DNA from: Flavobacteriia bacterium
Lineage (GTDB): Bacteria > Bacteroidota > Bacteroidia > Flavobacteriales > Schleiferiaceae
Assembly (NCBI GenBank): GCA_013373425.1
Contig: JABXHW010000043.1
Span: 1 to 56,141, forward strand
DNA: 56,141 nt
Direction: 5' to 3'
In this document: positions 13,014 through 47,026 of the stretch, in pieces
Layout of the letters: each line of letters opens with the position of its first letter
Position numbering within the stretch: position 1 is the first letter of the stretch
The notes under the pieces: generated by a model
Databases searched by the model: none
The model's input: only the letters and a program-made list of their open reading frames with translations
Told to the model about the DNA's origin: nothing
Made by a program: the position numbers and the translations under genes

Positions 13014-13623
13014 CACGATTTTCATCAACGACCTCACCATATATCTCACCAAAAATCCACCTGAGAACGAACAGTTCATTGAGGTGGAGGATGATATTCA
13101 AACCTGGCTTAGGGAGTACTGGCCAAAGGTCTGGGACACAAAGGTGAACGGTCGATTATATCTTCAATCCGACAATGTGGAGGCGCTTTGGGAAGCTTTA
13201 CAGAGTATGTATACCATCATTGAAGCGGCGGGCGGTTTAGTGACGAATGAAGAGGGAGAAGTCCTATTCATTCATCGCCTCGGGAAGTGGGACTTGCCAA
13301 AGGGTAAGTTGGAAGAAGGGGAAGACATTCCAACCTGTGCGCTTCGCGAAGTCGAAGAGGAGTGTGGATTGAACGGACATGTGATTGACTCAGCATTACC
13401 AGATACCTATCATACCTACTTTTTGAAAGGCAATCCCATCTTAAAGCGAACGTATTGGTTCAATATGAGTGTGAGTGGCAGACCTGAACTCATCCCACAA
13501 ACGGAAGAGGATATTACAGAGACTGTTTGGTTAGGTAAGGATAGATGGCTTGAAGTGGATCGTAATACCTATCCGTCTATTCGTTATTTACTTGAGCTTC
13601 ACCGCATCGGGCACGAAGAGTGA
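13009..13623 (+). CDS. NUDIX hydrolase with N-terminal extension
   Basis: Hydrolyses a nucleoside-diphosphate-linked substrate, identity unknown. The Nudix box is complete from residue 102: G-x5-E-x7-REVEEECGL. About 65 residues of a separate N-terminal domain (MYTIFINDLTIYLT...) precede the Nudix fold; this architecture is typical of the flavobacterial homologue beside pyrE. Start 13009 is chosen because homologues begin with MYx-F-IND; ATG 13000 is also in frame and would share two bases with the pyrE start codon. Its 3' end overlaps convergent coaD by 36 bp. No clear promoter is visible, so it must lie inside pyrE. Confidence 0.85.
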   Translation: MYTIFINDLTIYLTKNPPENEQFIEVEDDIQTWLREYWPKVWDTKVNGRLYLQSDNVEALWEALQSMYTIIEAAGGLVTNEEGEVLFIHRLGKWDLPKGKLEEGEDIPTCALREVEEECGLNGHVIDSALPDTYHTYFLKGNPILKRTYWFNMSVSGRPELIPQTEEDITETVWLGKDRWLEVDRNTYPSIRYLLELHRIGHEE

Positions 13624-18869: not shown

Positions 18870-19940
18870 ATGAAGAAATACGTCGTTATCTCATTGATTT
18901 TAGCAGGAGTAATTGCTTGTCAGCCTGATCAATTGGAAGAGCTTCCAATGCCAGGTCCAGATGTGACGTATATCGATTTTCCAAAGCCTGATAATTTTCC
19001 CGTACCTGAACTTCCTGCCGACAATCCACTTACCGAAGAAGGAGTCGAGCTTGGCAGACATTTGTTTTATGAAGTCCGATTATCGGGAGATAATACCTTG
19101 GCATGCGCAGGATGCCATCTACAGGATCAAGGTTTTTCAGATTTCAATGCCACTAGTGTAGGTATTGATGGGATTAGTGGAACAAAGAATGCTATGGCCA
19201 TTTTCAATCTAGCCTGGCAAGAGCACTTCTTCTGGGACGGTAGATCTCCGAGTCTTGAGCACCAAGCCGCCCTTCCAGTTGAAGACCCGATAGAAATGCA
19301 TACCACCTGGCCTGAAGCGCTTGCAAAGCTGGAGCAAGACAGTTTGTATCAGGCCTTGTTCGCCGCTGCCTTTGGTCCAAACTCCATCACCAGAGAGAAT
19401 GCCACTAAGGCCATTGCGCAATTCGAACGTATGCTGGTGAGTGCAGACTCCAAATTCGACGCATGGCAACGAGGTGATTATCAATTCACGCAGGAGGAGG
19501 CGCTAGGCTATAATATCTTCAACAGCGAGCGAGGCGACTGTTTCCATTGTCATGGCGATATCAATACAGGAAATACTTTCGGAGCATTCGGAACACTGCA
19601 GTTCACAAACAATGGATTGGACTCCAACTTAACTCCGGGCTCAGGTCGGGAAGGGGTTACAGGTGATAGTTTAGACAGAGCAAAGTTTAAGATTCCTTCA
19701 CTTCGAAATGTGGAATATACTTTCCCTTATATGCACGACGGACGCTTTCAAACACTCTTTGATGTTGTTGAGTTTTACAACACTGGTGGGTTCCCGTCGT
19801 ACACAATTGATCCAAACATGAAAGCAGCGGGAGTAGGAAGAAATTGGACTCCGGCGGAGAAAGCGGCATTGATTGCATTCATGCGCACGTTGAGTGATCC
19901 CAATTTTGTTACGAACCCGGCATTCTCGGATCCTTTCTAA
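18870..19940 (+). CDS. Di-haem cytochrome c peroxidase (MauG/CcpA family) lipoprotein
   Basis: Reduces hydrogen peroxide in the periplasm, or acts as a MauG-like oxidase. Start 18870 gives a lipoprotein signal (MKKYVVISLILAGVIAC, lipid-modified Cys17); ATG 18822 would add 16 residues before the signal and is rejected. Two haem c sites are visible: CAGCH (79-83) and CFHCH (224-228), with PSLRNVEYTFPYMHDGRFQTL and an FFWDGRSPSLEHQ segment between haems typical of the family. A TATTTTAG box lies 4 bp before the ATG. 56 bp separate it from rluD. Electron donor not encoded nearby. Confidence 0.9.
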   Translation: MKKYVVISLILAGVIACQPDQLEELPMPGPDVTYIDFPKPDNFPVPELPADNPLTEEGVELGRHLFYEVRLSGDNTLACAGCHLQDQGFSDFNATSVGIDGISGTKNAMAIFNLAWQEHFFWDGRSPSLEHQAALPVEDPIEMHTTWPEALAKLEQDSLYQALFAAAFGPNSITRENATKAIAQFERMLVSADSKFDAWQRGDYQFTQEEALGYNIFNSERGDCFHCHGDINTGNTFGAFGTLQFTNNGLDSNLTPGSGREGVTGDSLDRAKFKIPSLRNVEYTFPYMHDGRFQTLFDVVEFYNTGGFPSYTIDPNMKAAGVGRNWTPAEKAALIAFMRTLSDPNFVTNPAFSDPF

Positions 19941-20009
19941 GTTCTTTCTGGTGGGGGATTCTGGGACTAGAATGAGCTTTCTGGTACAGAAGAGTTTTTT
20001 GGTTTGTGG

Positions 20010-20106
20010 CTCGGGGCCGCCTCCGGCCACCCTCCGACGCAAAGTTCCGAATTCCATCCCGGTTACCCGTAAAGTAGACGTTTGTAAACGGCTAGTTTTG
20101 AACAGG
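20010..20106 (+). repeat. 97-bp direct repeat, copy 1
   Basis: 93 of 97 bases match copy 2 at 20283-20379 in the same orientation. The differences are two transition changes mid-repeat and two bases near the 3' end. Inside are a GC-rich hairpin GGCCG-cctc-CGGCC (20015-20028) and a second short inverted repeat CGTTTGTAAACG. Base composition of the first half (very GC-rich) differs from neighbouring intergenic DNA. No terminal inverted repeats or transposase. Confidence 0.85.
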
Positions 20107-20282
20107 CTATTGGCTATGCGATTTGCAAGGAGGAGAGTCGAAGCCTGAGAAGAAAGGAAATAAATACTGTCATGGAGTAGGGAGCTAGCCTAGTTAATAC
20201 GCTAAACCCGCATAAGGTTTGGGATTGGAGAAAGCGTAGAGATATCGAGGAGTGCTAGTGGGTGTGAGAATTGAGGTTGTTC

Positions 20283-20379
20283 CTCGGGGCCGCCTCCGGC
20301 CACCCTCCGACGCAAAGTTCCGAATTCCATCCCGGCTATCCGTAAAGTAGACGTTTGTAAACGGCTAGTTTTCCACAGG
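20283..20379 (+). repeat. 97-bp direct repeat, copy 2
   Basis: Second copy, offset 273 bp from the first. On the reverse strand both copies encode the same open peptide stretch containing EFGTLRRRVAGGGPE, but the frame has no consistent start or length in the two places, so a protein is unlikely. It ends 42 bp before the terminator of the acyl-CoA ligase gene. Confidence 0.85.
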
Positions 20380-20420
20380 GTAGGAAGTGAGAAGATCATC
20401 GGGTTTAAGAGGTGCCTTCG

Positions 20421-20459
20421 AATAAAAAAGCCTCGCAATCGGTCGTGACTGCGAGGCTT
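20421..20459 (-). terminator. Terminator of the acyl-CoA ligase operon
   Basis: Perfect 10-bp stem AAGCCTCGCA/TGCGAGGCTT (20428-20437 with 20450-20459). On the minus strand it is followed by a T-run (20429-20421). It lies 21 bp after the stop of the ligase. Confidence 0.9.
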
Positions 20460-20480
20460 GTGATTTCTTCTAGTACAAAT

Positions 20481-22262
20481 TTACGAGCGAGGTGGGTGAC
20501 CATATATGTTCTCGTAAAGTGCGGCGTACTTCGCAATGATAGGCTTACGACGTAAGCTCAGTTTTGGAGTAAGTTCGCCTCCTTCAACGCTCCAAGGTTC
20601 AGGAGTGAGTTCGAATTTCTTTACCTGTTCCCATTTGCCATAGCGCTGGTTGACGTCATTGATATCCCTTTCAATTCGCTCCTTAACTCTGTCGAGTTTG
20701 ATGGCTTCCGCATCTCCCGGATAGTCAATTTCCTTTCTTGCGCACCAATCTTTCAAGAAGGCAAAATCTGGTTGAACAAAGGCAGCTGGGTGTTTCTCAC
20801 CGTCCCCGATAACCATGATTTGCTCAATGAATCTCGACTCTTTGAATGAGTTCTCCATGATCTGTGGGGCTACATATTTACCTCCACTTGTTTTGAACAT
20901 CTCCTTCTTTCGGTCGGTGATTTTGAGATACTGACCTTCAACTATTTCACCGATGTCGCCCGTGTGGAACCATCCGTCTTTATCCAAGACTTCAGCTGTC
21001 TTCTCAGGCTGATTGTAATAGCCCATCATGATGTTCGGGCCTTTAGCCAGGATTTCACCGTCCTCAGCAATCTTCACTTCACAGCCTTCGATGGGTCGAC
21101 CAACAGTTCCGATACGAGTGCCATCGTCCAGCGGACAGTTAACGCTGATAACAGGCGATGTCTCAGTGAGGCCATACCCTTCCTGGATGTTGATATCTGC
21201 CGCAAGGAAGATTCTCGCCAATTTCGGATTCAGTGCAGCGGATCCTGAAGCAATGGCTTTTACATTTCCTCCAAGTGCTTCTTGCCACTTGCTGAAGATC
21301 AGCTTTCGGGCAATTTTTAGCTTGAAGTTGTACCAGCCGCTTCGACCGTTAATGGTGTATTTTTCTCCGACAGAAACAGCCCAAAAGAAGAGGCCTTTCT
21401 TGATGCCGGTAAGCTCTGCGCCTTTGCCCATGATGCGGTCGTAGACTTTCTCTAGAAGTCGAGGGACAGCTGTGAAGATGATTGGCTTTACTTCTCGAAT
21501 GTTATCTCCGATGGTGTCTAGAGATTCAGCATAGTAAATCGGAACACTCTTGTAGGCATAGAGGTAAATGAGCATTCTTTCAAAGATGTGACAAAGTGGT
21601 AAGAAGCTGATTGCCCTTCCTTCTACATCAACAGGTAAACGACTTTCACAATTGAGAACATTGCTAACGATGTTCCAGTGACTCAACATTACGCCTTTAG
21701 GTTTTCCAGTAGTTCCAGAAGTGTAAATAAGCGTTGCCAAATCTTCTTTCTTGACCGCCGCTTTGCGCTTTTCAATTTCGTCCGACTTCGGATTGTTTTT
21801 TCCGAGTTCGAGAACCTCTTTCCAGTTTGGAACGCCAGCTTCATCATCAAAAATGAATACTTCCTTGAGCGTTGGGCAATCTGGCTGAACTCGCTTCACC
21901 TTGTCGTAGAGTTCCTTGTTACTCACGAAGCACATCTTCACAGAAGCGTCGTTGAAGATATAGGTGTAGTCTTCTTCAGAAGCAGTAGGATACATCGGAA
22001 CGTCGATGGCGCCAGCTTGAAGGATGCCAATGTCCATGATATTCCATTCGTATCTGTTGTTGGCGCTGATGAGAGCAACTTTATCTCCAGGCTCAATTCC
22101 CTTTTCGATTAAAGCTGAGGAAATATGACTGGCATTGTCGACGTATTCTTGCGTGCTGATTTTAATCCAGTTTCCATTCACCTTGGTGGCAATGGCGTCG
22201 GATAAAGGCTTGTTGGCAAGTTGATAATGAGGTACGTCAAACAGGCGTTCCGGTTTATTCAT
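20481..22262 (-). CDS. Long-chain fatty acid--CoA ligase
   Basis: Activates fatty acids to acyl-CoA via an acyl-adenylate. ANL-superfamily motifs are in order: P-loop LIYTSGTTGKPKGVML (about 176-191), the gate region VEGRAISFLPLCHIFER, YGLTETSPVIS, WFHTGDIGE and ITDRKKEMFKTSGGKYVAP with the catalytic Lys region near the C-terminus. The 593 aa and the KKGLFFWAVSVGEKY segment fit the bacterial long-chain Faa1/FadD15 type. Its start overlaps the amidohydrolase stop by 8 bp, and it ends with a strong terminator. Could feed acyl-CoA bound by the ACBP at 6046; that link is inference. Confidence 0.93.
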   Translation of the reverse strand: MNKPERLFDVPHYQLANKPLSDAIATKVNGNWIKISTQEYVDNASHISSALIEKGIEPGDKVALISANNRYEWNIMDIGILQAGAIDVPMYPTASEEDYTYIFNDASVKMCFVSNKELYDKVKRVQPDCPTLKEVFIFDDEAGVPNWKEVLELGKNNPKSDEIEKRKAAVKKEDLATLIYTSGTTGKPKGVMLSHWNIVSNVLNCESRLPVDVEGRAISFLPLCHIFERMLIYLYAYKSVPIYYAESLDTIGDNIREVKPIIFTAVPRLLEKVYDRIMGKGAELTGIKKGLFFWAVSVGEKYTINGRSGWYNFKLKIARKLIFSKWQEALGGNVKAIASGSAALNPKLARIFLAADINIQEGYGLTETSPVISVNCPLDDGTRIGTVGRPIEGCEVKIAEDGEILAKGPNIMMGYYNQPEKTAEVLDKDGWFHTGDIGEIVEGQYLKITDRKKEMFKTSGGKYVAPQIMENSFKESRFIEQIMVIGDGEKHPAAFVQPDFAFLKDWCARKEIDYPGDAEAIKLDRVKERIERDINDVNQRYGKWEQVKKFELTPEPWSVEGGELTPKLSLRRKPIIAKYAALYENIYGHPPRS

Positions 22263-36081: not shown

Positions 36082-38187
36082 TTAGGAGATGCGACTCCAC
36101 TGTACCTTGCCCTTCGCTTGTTCAATGTAGAACTGTCGGGTAGCAGCATGCTCCGGCTTGGTTAGCTTTGGATCTTCTGCCAATAATCCTTCTGCTTCCT
36201 TTCTCGCCAAATGTAAGAGTTGGTTGTCCTTCGTGATATCGGCAATCTTCAAGTCCAACATCCCACTTTGACGTGTTCCCATCATGTCGCCTGGCCCACG
36301 CAATTGGAGATCGACATCGGCAATTTCAAATCCATCGTTTGTTCTAACCATGGTCTCAATGCGGGTTCTAGCTTCATTGCTTAACTTTTGCCCGCTCATA
36401 AGAATACAGAAACTCTGCTCGGCACCTCGGCCTACTCTTCCGCGTAATTGATGAAGCTGACTCAGTCCAAATCGCTCTGTGCTTTCAATGACCATCACAC
36501 TTGCGTTGGGAACATTCACACCCACTTCAATCACGGTAGTGGCCACCATGATTTGGGTTTCACCCTTCGCAAAGCGCTGCATTTCATAATCCTTATCCTC
36601 GGCTTTCATTCTACCGTGCACAATGCTAACGTGATAATCAGGAGTTGGAAATTCCCTGCAGATACTGTTGTATCCATCTTCCAAATCTTTGAAGTCCATC
36701 TTGGCACTCTCCTCAATGAGTGGATAAACAACATAGCACTGTCGGCCTTTGGCAATTTGCTCTTTCATAAATCCAAACACCTGAAGTCGGTTTGAATCAT
36801 ATCGATGCACGGTCTTGATAGGTTTACGACCTGGTGGGAGTTCGTCGATGACGCTTGAATCCAAATCTCCATACAAGCTCATGGCAAGTGTGCGCGGAAT
36901 CGGTGTGGCAGTCATGATGAGAATATGCGGTGGAATGCTGTTCTTTTTCCAAAGTTTGGCGCGTTGCGCAACCCCAAAGCGATGTTGTTCATCAATCACC
37001 GCTAAACCTAGATTTCTAAACTGCACCGTGGGTTCGATAAGGGCATGGGTGCCAACGAGTATATCAAGCTGTCCATTGAGTAAGTCGGCATGAATCTCCT
37101 TTCTGCGTGCTGTTTTTGTCGATCCAGTTAATAGAGCAATACGCACTTCTGTTCCTTCCAACATCTCACTCAATCCATTGTAATGTTGCTGGGCCAAAAT
37201 TTCAGTAGGCGCCATCAAACAACTTTGGAAACCATTGTCAGCGGCGATAAGCATGCTCAGTAATGCAACCACGGTTTTGCCTGAACCTACATCACCCTGT
37301 ACGAGTCGGTTCATGTGATGGCCCGACTTTGTGTCTTTTCGAATTTCCTTTAGGACCCGCTTTTGTGCTCCAGTTAATTCAAAAGGAAGGTGATTGCTGT
37401 AGAAGCCATTGAACGCATCTCCCACTTTGTCGAAAACCTGACCTTTCGTAAGCACCGTTGTCCTTTGCTTTTGCAGCAGCATGCTGATTTGAATGAAGTA
37501 GAACTCCTCAAATTTCAACCGTTTTCTAGCGCTTTCTAGTGATTCTAGGTCTTTCGGAAAATGAACCGCCATGAGCGATTGTTCCTTGGAAGGCCATTTG
37601 TAGTGCTCAAGAATTCTAGCGGGCAAGTTCTCTCGAATTACACCCTTAAGTTGGGGGAGTAAGACCTTGGTGAGTTTACCGATTCCTCTGGCATTCAAAC
37701 CCTTGTTGGTCAATTTCTCAGTGCTTGGGTAGACGGGCTGCAAACCTTGGATCGGACTCTTTTTGAAATCTTCAACCTTTTCCAATTCGGGGTGAGGGAA
37801 GGAGTACTTTCCCTTGAAGTAGTTCGGCTTTCCGAATAGAACGTACTCGGTTCCAATTTGAAGTGACTTCTTGATCCATTGTGCACCTTTGAACCAAACC
37901 AGTTCTACTCTGCCCGTAGAATCTTCAAAGTGTGCTACCAATCTTTTCTTTCTAGGCTGACCTACCTCTTCTATGCTTGTGATTTTTCCTCGAACTTGAA
38001 CTTCCGTACTCGCCGATTGAATCTCTTTAACCGTGTAGAACTTAGAACGATCGATATAGCGAAAAGGATAGAGAGTGAGAAGATCTCCAAACGTGAAAAT
38101 GCGCATCTCGGTTTTGAGCAAATCTGCCTTTGCCGGACCGACGCCTTTCAAGAATTCTATGGGTGTTTTGAGAAGGTCTTTCTCCAT
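36082..38187 (-). CDS. recG: ATP-dependent DNA helicase RecG
   Basis: Remodels stalled forks and Holliday junctions. N-terminal wedge/OB domain (about 60-150, VRGKITSIEEVG), then superfamily 2 helicase motifs: GDVGSGKTVVAL (Walker A), DEQHRFGVAQR (motif II), MTATPIPRTLAMS (III), and GRMKAEDK, VATTVIEVGVNVPNAS and QLRGRVGRG (IV-VI) in order. 701 aa is normal. Upstream on the minus strand CATTTTAG-cggt precedes the ATG at the 4-bp spacing seen elsewhere. Divergent from the aminopeptidase gene with 76 bp between starts. Confidence 0.96.
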   Translation of the reverse strand: MEKDLLKTPIEFLKGVGPAKADLLKTEMRIFTFGDLLTLYPFRYIDRSKFYTVKEIQSASTEVQVRGKITSIEEVGQPRKKRLVAHFEDSTGRVELVWFKGAQWIKKSLQIGTEYVLFGKPNYFKGKYSFPHPELEKVEDFKKSPIQGLQPVYPSTEKLTNKGLNARGIGKLTKVLLPQLKGVIRENLPARILEHYKWPSKEQSLMAVHFPKDLESLESARKRLKFEEFYFIQISMLLQKQRTTVLTKGQVFDKVGDAFNGFYSNHLPFELTGAQKRVLKEIRKDTKSGHHMNRLVQGDVGSGKTVVALLSMLIAADNGFQSCLMAPTEILAQQHYNGLSEMLEGTEVRIALLTGSTKTARRKEIHADLLNGQLDILVGTHALIEPTVQFRNLGLAVIDEQHRFGVAQRAKLWKKNSIPPHILIMTATPIPRTLAMSLYGDLDSSVIDELPPGRKPIKTVHRYDSNRLQVFGFMKEQIAKGRQCYVVYPLIEESAKMDFKDLEDGYNSICREFPTPDYHVSIVHGRMKAEDKDYEMQRFAKGETQIMVATTVIEVGVNVPNASVMVIESTERFGLSQLHQLRGRVGRGAEQSFCILMSGQKLSNEARTRIETMVRTNDGFEIADVDLQLRGPGDMMGTRQSGMLDLKIADITKDNQLLHLARKEAEGLLAEDPKLTKPEHAATRQFYIEQAKGKVQWSRIS

Positions 38188-45676: not shown

Positions 45677-47026
45677 TTAGGAGGTTGAACTTTTTATCAT
45701 TTGGTTCACTTTTGAAGTGAATCTCCACCATTGTGCTAAGGCGGATAACGTAAGTCCAACGGCCAAACCAATCCATACGCCCATGGCGCCCATTTCCAAT
45801 TCCTTTCCAAGGATATACCCCAATGGAATAGATATCACCCAGTAAGAAACGAAAGTGATTATAGTAGGCATTCGAACATCGCTAAGTCCTCTCAAAGCAC
45901 CGAGTGCAGTAACTTGTACGCCATCACTAATCTGGAATAGGGTAGTGACAATGAGCAAGGTTGCTGCGATTTGAATCACCTCTATCTCTTCGGTGAAGAG
46001 ACCTGGTAAAAAGTCACGTCCGACAAGATAAACTACTCCAGCTGCGGCCATGAAAAGCACAACCATTTCGAAGAGTGTAGTGGCTGCAACTTTCAACGTT
46101 TTATAGTCTTTACGCCCCAGCTGGTTTCCAACTCTCACTGTTGCAGCTGCTCCAAAACCACTTGCGGCCATGTAGCTGATTGAAGCCAATGAAATCGCAA
46201 TTTGGTGGGCGGCTTGTTCGATGTAATCGATGGATCCAATAATCAAAGACGAGGCAGCGAACGCTCCAACTTCAAAGATGTATTGCAATCCTGAAGGAAC
46301 ACCAATGGCCAATACGGCTCGCATTTCATCCCACTTCAATTTAGTATCCCAGAAGATGGTCATGTGTTCTTTGTACCTAGCCTTGCTGTGAACCCACCAA
46401 ATCATTAACGCCATCATGACGATACGCGAAATTAATGTGGCATAGGCTGCGCCCACCATCCCCATTGGCTCAATTCCGAACTTGCCGAAGATGAAAATCC
46501 AGTTGAGAATGATGTTCAACACATTGGAAGCGAGACTCAAGCGCATTGCCGCCTTAGTATCGCTCAGACCTTCTGTAAACTGCTTGTAATTGAAAAAGAT
46601 TTGAAGTGGAAAGAAGCTAAGAGTCACTACGGTGAAGTAGGGAATAGCTTCCAGAACCACAGCAGGATCTTGATCAAATTGATCCATAAACGGACGCAAG
46701 GCGAATAGGATTCCTACGATGAGAATTCCAACCACAGTATTGACAACCATTCCGTTCTTAAACAGACGAGCGGCTTTGCGAGTCTTACCTTGTGCATCGG
46801 CATTGGCCACTAGAGGCGTGAGTCCGTAGGCTACTCCAATTCCAAAAACTAGGGGAATAGCTAGTAGGGAGTTTGCATATGAGATGGCGGCAAGCGGAAC
46901 GTCTCCGAGCTGCCCGACCATCAAACTGTCGACTACCCCCACAAGGATTTGACCCAAGGAACCGATCATGACCGGGTAGGCTAGCGACAGTGATTTTCTA
47001 TATTCTGATTTAGGAGCTGTAAACAT
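45677..47026 (-). CDS. MATE-family efflux transporter
   Basis: 449 aa, 12 predicted membrane helices in two six-helix halves. The N-half begins YRKSLSLAYPVMIGSLGQILVGVVDSLMVGQLG, typical of NorM-type MATE proteins that export cationic drugs with Na+ or H+. The second half has ISYMAASGFGAAATVRVGNQLGRKDYK. Substrate unknown. Its ATG lies 5 bp past the terminator of the 76-aa gene, and the terminator's T-run ends in TTTTTTTG followed by CACC and ATG, so it may double as a -7 element. Confidence 0.93.
   Translation of the reverse strand: MFTAPKSEYRKSLSLAYPVMIGSLGQILVGVVDSLMVGQLGDVPLAAISYANSLLAIPLVFGIGVAYGLTPLVANADAQGKTRKAARLFKNGMVVNTVVGILIVGILFALRPFMDQFDQDPAVVLEAIPYFTVVTLSFFPLQIFFNYKQFTEGLSDTKAAMRLSLASNVLNIILNWIFIFGKFGIEPMGMVGAAYATLISRIVMMALMIWWVHSKARYKEHMTIFWDTKLKWDEMRAVLAIGVPSGLQYIFEVGAFAASSLIIGSIDYIEQAAHQIAISLASISYMAASGFGAAATVRVGNQLGRKDYKTLKVAATTLFEMVVLFMAAAGVVYLVGRDFLPGLFTEEIEVIQIAATLLIVTTLFQISDGVQVTALGALRGLSDVRMPTIITFVSYWVISIPLGYILGKELEMGAMGVWIGLAVGLTLSALAQWWRFTSKVNQMIKSSTS

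Follow-up and report, generated by a model that had tools for sequence, protein, structure and literature searches.

Paired repeats in a flavobacterial contig are half-copies of a dispersed, hairpin-ended family of intergenic elements

Introduction

REP sequences share a general layout, a palindromic hairpin with a tag at its foot, for which GGAG is one alternative. REPINs and GTAG-REPs carry a GT[AG]G tag at the hairpin foot. For the TIRYT families, GGGGWSAS is reported for some of the TIRs only (PMC3733652), and CGTC-tagged REPs are described as palindromic repeats of 20 to 40 bp that occur, without a dedicated transposase, in Bacteroidetes among other phyla (PMC3733652). In the enterobacteria, repeats of the RU/ERIC type are 100- to 200-bp intergenic palindromic sequences that contain no gene and are reported to be MITE-like (PMC2759123).

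The locus considered here lies in a 56,141-nucleotide stretch of Flavobacteriia bacterium DNA (contig JABXHW010000043.1), which we refer to as the window. A preliminary description of the window drew attention to a pair of direct repeats and offered several readings of them, among which were a structured RNA, an abundant dispersed family, and a nonautonomous element. Here, we report that the pair consists of shortened (5′-half) copies of a scattered palindromic family, and we argue, with somewhat more confidence than doubt, that this is a genus-wide family of small nonautonomous mobile elements, REPIN- or MITE-like, that were moved in trans, probably via their hairpin ends. No description of it was found in the open-licence papers searched, which is not proof that none exists; we regard these hairpin-ended intergenic elements as a genuine family that apparently has yet to be catalogued.

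Results

The repeat pair in the window

The two copies lie in the same orientation and are identical at 93 of 97 positions (the mismatches are at 20063, 20066, 20100, and 20101), exactly as first described, and they can be extended without gaps to the 106-nt limits given in Table 1, with a start-to-start spacing of 273. The outer hairpin, the CGTTTGTAAACG stretch (20079-20090), and the convergent arrangement of the flanking genes were likewise reported correctly. The claim that the pair occupies the only large gene-free gap was wrong, since a simple script that calls ORFs of ≥90 aa leaves six gaps of >250 bp in the window, including one of 981 bp at 37094-38074 and one of 508 bp at 13080-13587.

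Immediately outside the 106-nt repeat, the adjoining 20 nt of the two copies share only 4 of 20 identities on each side, and the longest BLAST match between corresponding flanks is ≤11 nt. Since the flanks are unrelated, the repeat itself is the duplicated unit, and a segmental tandem duplication of the region was rejected; that two such equal repeats arose by chance is out of the question.

Table 1. Features of the repeat pair and its surroundings (window coordinates)
Feature	Position	Strand	Basis or remark
Copy 1, 5′ half-element (outer hairpin end, end motif, central palindrome, tail)	20004..20109	+	106-nt repeat; R1 match 20009-20114, 46.6 bits
Copy 2, 5′ half-element	20277..20382	+	99/106 identical to copy 1; R1 match 20282-20381, 44.4 bits
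Outer hairpin GGCCG-CCTC-CGGCC of copy 1, within GGGG..CCC end	20015..20028	.	Sequence, DNA fold
Outer hairpin of copy 2	20288..20301	.	Sequence, DNA fold
AAAGTTCCG of copy 1, counterpart of the family inner end motif CAAGTTACG	20041..20049	+	Copy alignment and cmsearch alignment
Central palindrome (hub) of copy 1, GTAGACGTTTGT at 20074-20085	20063..20094	.	Aligned hubs
Central palindrome (hub) of copy 2	20336..20367	.	Aligned hubs
Tail CTAGTTTTGAACAGG of copy 1, copies diverge beyond	20092..20106	+	ACAGG tail in 4/21 short copies
Tail CTAGTTTTCCACAGG of copy 2, variant	20365..20379	+	Aligned hubs
CCP_MauG di-haem cytochrome c peroxidase family gene, context only	18873..19940	+	Pfam PF03150, 185 bits
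Terminator-like inverted repeat AAGCCTCGCAATC/GACTGCGAGGCTT, outside the family, context only	20428..20459	.	Inverted-repeat search
AMP-binding enzyme gene, context only	20481..22262	-	Pfam PF00501, 243 bits

A dispersed family in three species of one genus

When the window's own genome (G000) was searched with the 106-nt copy, six long matches were obtained on five contigs (100, 93, 85, 83, 84, and 76% identity over the aligned parts), which reveals a dispersed family. Among 149 genomes, this query had a match at an E value of ≤1e-4 in only two, G000 and one other genome of the same genus. The modularity of the family became apparent with a longer query taken from another copy, and full elements were seen in the stretches around the matches. 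A covariance model, R1, with rough E values, was built from an alignment of 19 full elements (A1). Counting both strands of near-palindromic copies, R1 gave 70 matches in G000 and 27 and 74 in two sister species (G001 and G002, the latter being Phaeocystidibacter luteus LMG 25704). These correspond to at least 43, 18, and 50 nonoverlapping places, respectively, or at least 111 over the three species of this one genus; nonoverlapping places of ≥165 nt among the matches listed numbered 31, 11, and 31. Under stricter filters, with 26 candidates scored per genome, no R1 match was found in the 96 other relatives among the 99 genomes searched.

The dispersed nature of the family is thus well supported, and the suggestions that the repeats belong to an abundant dispersed family and are a nonautonomous element are both supported by these counts. 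The outcome named beforehand as speaking against them, just two copies with no relatives, was not observed, and a simple local duplication does not account for the pair. Ninety-three copies, out of the at least 111 places, were studied further.

An end motif of the family was also sought by pattern. In the genome collection, 14 stretches contain this motif, AACTTGAGACYGGGGMGGGG; they come from P. luteus, Zeaxanthinibacter sp. PT1, and two flavobacterial metagenome-assembled genomes (MAGs), and no viral contig contains it. With one mismatch allowed, 5 of the 395 genomes searched in the order had it, namely, the three family carriers and two genomes of one other genus, one of which gave the same coordinates as Zeaxanthinibacter sp. 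PT1; a reversed control of the pattern gave 0 throughout. In one MAG (MAG_179), a AAACGTTT palindrome lies ~50 nt before the end motif. Zeaxanthinibacter yielded 59 matches to a 246-nt query with the AACTTGAGACYGGGGMGGGG end, mostly to its last ~60 to 75 nt and in some cases to another stretch.

Several of the Zeaxanthinibacter matches lie in tandem arrays. In L229 to L239 (Zeaxanthinibacter sp. PT1), these are arrays of a ~60-nt two-hairpin unit ending in AACTTGANACCGGGGCGGGG, with periods of 272 to 274 bp (L229 and L230) or ~330 bp (L231). An integron-like cassette array, considered for the 272- to 273-bp spacing in both Zeaxanthinibacter and the window, was rejected, as the spacers are duplicated together with the unit, wholly or partly, in the two arrays examined closely (L229 and L230). 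A phage or plasmid origin was also set aside: viral contigs held no exact match to the pattern, the window copy had only short, weak plasmid matches (3 records), and a full element had short, weak phage matches (2 records) and none in plasmids.

Anatomy of the full element

The full element spans ~174 to 191 bp and consists, in order, of a self-complementary GGGG..CCCC end, TCAAGTTACG, a central palindrome (GTAAACGTTTAC), CGTAACTTGA, and a second self-complementary end. Its typical 5′ start reads GCCCGGGG-stem-CCCC followed by A..TCAAGTTACG, and its 3′ closure reads CGAACTTGA..GGGG-stem-CCCC. The central palindrome has the consensus TAGYCGnnnGTAAACGTTTACnnnCGGCTA, and in 83 of the 93 copies its best match is located 62 to 68 nt after the 5′ start; in many G000 copies, it is followed by a second short palindrome, GCGTGAWTCACGC, and by TGAGATTC. 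Seventy-two of the 93 copies are ≥165 nt long and span both inverted ends of the model, and 69 of these measure 174 to 191 nt. The terminal inverted repeats are ~25 to 40 bp long, and in one copy (L054) pairing of the outer 25 nt is complete, with the element folding over its entire length at -95.4 kcal/mol (z = -9.3). The statement that terminal inverted repeats are lacking accordingly holds for the two half-copies in the window but not for the full-length family.

The window copies keep the order of outer end, AAAGTTCCG, central palindrome, and CTAGTTTTGAACAGG. An ACAGG tail beyond which the sequences diverge recurs in 4 of the 21 short copies (both window copies, L004, and L115) and in L014, and it is absent from the remaining 17 of 21; this recurrence raises the possibility that the half-element is an independent unit. 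At two G000 sites (L060:1503-1541 and L116:1971-2061), the central palindrome stands without the usual GGGG..CCCC end, which suggests a separable module or a decayed copy. In L050 (318-913; G000 contig C18), the 3′ end of an element recurs ~560 bp away, similarly oriented and immediately past an apparent ORF stop codon.

End stems vary but keep pairing

The end stems differ from copy to copy yet tend to remain self-complementary, as in GGGGATGC..GCATCCC, GGGGGTAGC..GCTACCCC, and GGGGCGCG..CGCGTCCC. When the arms were swapped between copies, the mean folding energy of 44 distinct 5′ ends rose from -10.45 to -8.41 kcal/mol, a difference reached in 0 of 1,000 permutations, and that of 46 distinct 3′ ends rose from -9.43 to -8.65 kcal/mol (2 of 1,000 permutations); these statistics ignore relatedness and cover the ends that fit a regular expression (62 of the 93 at the 5′ side and 67 of the 72 at the 3′ side). 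Some end types, e.g., GGGGCCACCAAGCCTCCTCCC, fold poorly, which counts against the explanation that we prefer. The consensus fold of A1 contains only six pairs, none of them compensatory, since the register of the end stems changes from copy to copy.

In the central palindrome, it is the sequence that is kept: 89.5% of its cells pair, versus 29 to 40% when the pairing is slid, and no covariation above that of shuffles was detected in it. On the plus strand, the DNA folds of the two window copies are slightly better than shuffles (z = -1.95 and -1.74), and on the minus strand, they are no better (z = 0.05 and -0.11). A search of the window against Rfam 15 gave 0 matches, and across six loci only a tRNA scored above threshold, while the one match that overlaps the L049 element falls far short of it (22 of 70 bits); a known RNA family is therefore unsupported.

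Elements lie between genes without a preferred orientation

An ORF overlap of ≤30 nt was observed in 79 of 93 copies, against 11.4 expected for random placement in the same loci, which were chosen for holding elements and annotated with a simple ORF caller. Both neighbours could be called for 91 copies: the flanking genes are in tandem for 49 of these, divergent for 25, and convergent for 17 (compared with 69, 22, and 13, respectively, of the background gaps of ≥30 nt). Between tandem genes, 24 elements are on the same strand as the genes and 25 on the opposite one. The 91 copies thus have no clear preference for gene orientation or strand, a result that disfavors both a terminator and an RNA tied to one strand; the central palindrome was likewise dropped as an operator, given that its placement shows no preference.

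Sites, flanks, and divergence

Both sister species lack the pair at the window site (no R1 match at an E value of ≤0.5; L173 to L176). In both (L177 and L178), the corresponding gap (window 19941-20480) holds an ORF that is absent from the window, of 158 aa in G002 and 157 aa in G001. The G001 product has an NlpE domain (47 bits), and no Pfam match was found for the G002 product. The gap has therefore been changed by more than an insertion, which again counts against our preferred explanation. The gap orthologous to the L049 site measures ~145 bp in G002 versus ~800 bp in G000, and the junction read from either sister holds no element. Only four positions among the 93 copies have both flanks shared between species, in a comparison that misses diverged flanks.

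Direct repeats of 3 to 10 nt at the ends did not rise above permutation in the 70 of 72 full elements covered; a lack of target site duplications of ≥3 nt is what one would expect from Y1-type movement, as well as from insertions that are old. The closest nontandem full copies in the three genomes are 88% identical, and the median is 48%, which gives no sign of recent activity or of a burst.

Near 46141-46327 of G000 contig C63 (L052), the flanks of an element lie ~15 to 17 kb apart and inverted in both sisters, implying a rearrangement breakpoint at or near the element. Many P. luteus copies (L119, L123, L126, L130, L133, L134, L136, and others) have further dispersed repeats of ~50 to 350 bp nearby, as judged from within-genome matches of their flanks.

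Candidate movers

A search for Y1_Tnp genes (PF01797) returned one in G000 and three in G002. There was no match in G001 or in G149, G150, and G151 (the genomes behind L164, L163, and L159); all four carry the family or its end motif, and two are MAGs, perhaps incomplete. Each Y1/RAYT-type gene of G002 (L065, L067, and L068) sits among its own array of palindromic repeats, which by eye are unrelated to the family, and R1 scores nothing above 1.7 bits there. In L066 (1200-1893), the G000 Y1 gene lies beside CATCGGGTGGTAACCCGATG-type/CATCGGGT hairpins, between which is a sequence resembling the central palindrome (11.7 bits; E = 0.007); the hairpin of this locus also occurs once in L104 (1777-1796), near an element. 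By pattern, the family end motif is absent from all four Y1 loci (L065 to L068), and no autonomous relative with the same ends was seen in the single-end loci read.

RAYT, considered first as the mover because of the inverted hairpins, is weakened as a present one, since no Y1 gene was found in four genomes that carry the family or its end motif, and the Y1 genes of the others lie beside other repeats. No mover was found among these genes, and the putative hairpin-reading enzyme may be gone from some hosts.

Discussion

We favor the reading that the elements would have been copied in trans by an enzyme that recognizes their terminal hairpins; the substrate would most probably be single-stranded DNA, a route that has been proposed for REPINs and for TIR-type repeats linked to Y1 tyrosine transposases. 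Of the mechanisms considered, we judge this hairpin-reading one the most likely. In its favor are the dispersal, the unrelated flanks of the pair, the inverted ends, the self-pairing of the variable end stems, the intergenic placement without a clear orientation preference, the two sites at which both sisters lack the element, the scarcity of positions shared between species, and the lack of direct repeats at the ends. Against it stand the failure to find a mover, the position of the Y1 genes beside other repeats or hairpins, the lack of GTAG/GGAG tags, and the low identity among full copies. The window pair would then be a shortened derivative, made up of the outer hairpin, the central palindrome, and the CTAGTTTTGAACAGG tail, that either landed twice or was copied nearby.

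A rival explanation, for the pair only, is that local duplication or gene conversion made one copy out of the other, without a second insertion. We lean against this but consider it plausible. The copies are 93% identical to each other and at most 85% identical to any other copy, and other close pairs are adjacent as well: two copies on contig C1 of G001 are 241 bp apart, and three on contig C25 of G002 are 277 to 278 bp apart, with the upstream flank also repeated in the G002 case. The flanks of the window copies, however, are dissimilar, unlike those of a segmental duplication. A recent duplication or gene conversion, as the preliminary description proposed, is possible for this pair.

The AACTTGAGACYGGGGMGGGG ends are common to Phaeocystidibacter, Zeaxanthinibacter, and two flavobacterial MAGs, with interiors that differ, and the end stems drift yet remain self-complementary. 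We also raise, tentatively and with doubt prevailing, a flavobacterial mobile-element system with the signature end AACTTGAGACYGGGGMGGGG plus hairpin that is moved by a non-Y1 enzyme. If so, the mover would read the hairpin shape and the CAAGTTACG foot rather than the sequence of the stem.

A classical MITE, i.e., an internally deleted DNA transposon whose inverted ends are bound by a DDE transposase, is unlikely. Here, the end hairpins would be a by-product of palindromic binding sites. The inverted ends of ~25 to 40 bp would suit it, as would the failure to find a Y1 gene in four carriers, and a single 2-nt offset gave 16 matches versus 7.3 expected, although it stood out as the best among several hundred combinations. 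Counting against it, 70 full elements have no target site duplication of ≥3 nt, although very old insertions could have lost one, and no autonomous relative was seen in the loci read. Moreover, binding of double-stranded DNA leaves unexplained why the end stems change and yet keep pairing with themselves, a property that fits the hairpin-reading enzyme that we prefer.

We consider it improbable that the family is regulatory, a structured RNA, or a protein-binding site that has spread, with the central palindrome serving as an operator-like site and the hairpins as RNA stabilizers. The central palindrome presumably resembles LacI-family operators. It is strongly conserved, its spacing to the 5′ start is nearly fixed, L060 and L116 have it without the usual ends, and a similar form lies beside the G000 Y1 gene; the same 12-mer also appears in one paper on a Paenibacillus xylose operon and in another on Staphylococcus aureus CcpA. 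No clear promoter, 3′, or strand preference was seen among the copies, however, no covariation of the palindrome and no credible Rfam match were found, and few positions are shared between species. The earlier suggestion of a structured RNA thus finds little support, the folds of the two window copies exceeding shuffles only slightly and on one strand.

The genus gains a family of small elements that is defined by clear ends plus a foot motif on the inner side and is present at ≥43 and ≥50 places in two species. This also means that small hairpin-ended mobile DNA can be separated from the Y1/RAYT enzymes usually tied to it, because G001 keeps the elements and no Y1 gene was found there. Naming the past or present mover would show whether another class of enzyme reads hairpin ends. 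On the practical side, annotation of the elements as genes or RNAs should be avoided; they are markers of places where the genome has changed.

How, then, does the family compare with the systems introduced above? With the REPIN/BIME sequences that have RAYT (TnpA-REP) partners (PMC3116915 and PMC6006769), the likeness lies in two inverted palindromic ends that form one dispersed, mostly intergenic, nonautonomous unit, with no target duplication found. The family has both palindromes inverted as one unit (72 of 93 copies, with L054 pairing end to end), and it is multicopy, dispersed, and intergenic (79 of 93 copies versus 11.4; at least 43, 18, and 50 places). In contrast, its unit is longer and has a conserved central palindrome, and GTAG or GGAG was found within 8 nt in 0 of the 143 ends covered, out of 144 possible. 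No Y1/RAYT gene flanked by the family repeat was found, and G001 has elements but no PF01797 match.

Compared with the TIRs of TIRYT families, GGGGWSAS fits 10 of the 143 ends, and no Y1 gene flanked by family ends was seen (L065 to L068). CGTC lies within 8 nt of 1 of the 143 ends, and at ~180 bp the family is longer than CGTC-tagged REPs. The layout is therefore of the REPIN or TIR type, but the tag and Y1 features fail, so that by the features tested the family falls in neither class. By description, it can be likened to the RU/ERIC-type repeats of a different phylum, and it shares with the CGTC-tagged REPs the character of palindromic repeats that occur without a dedicated transposase.
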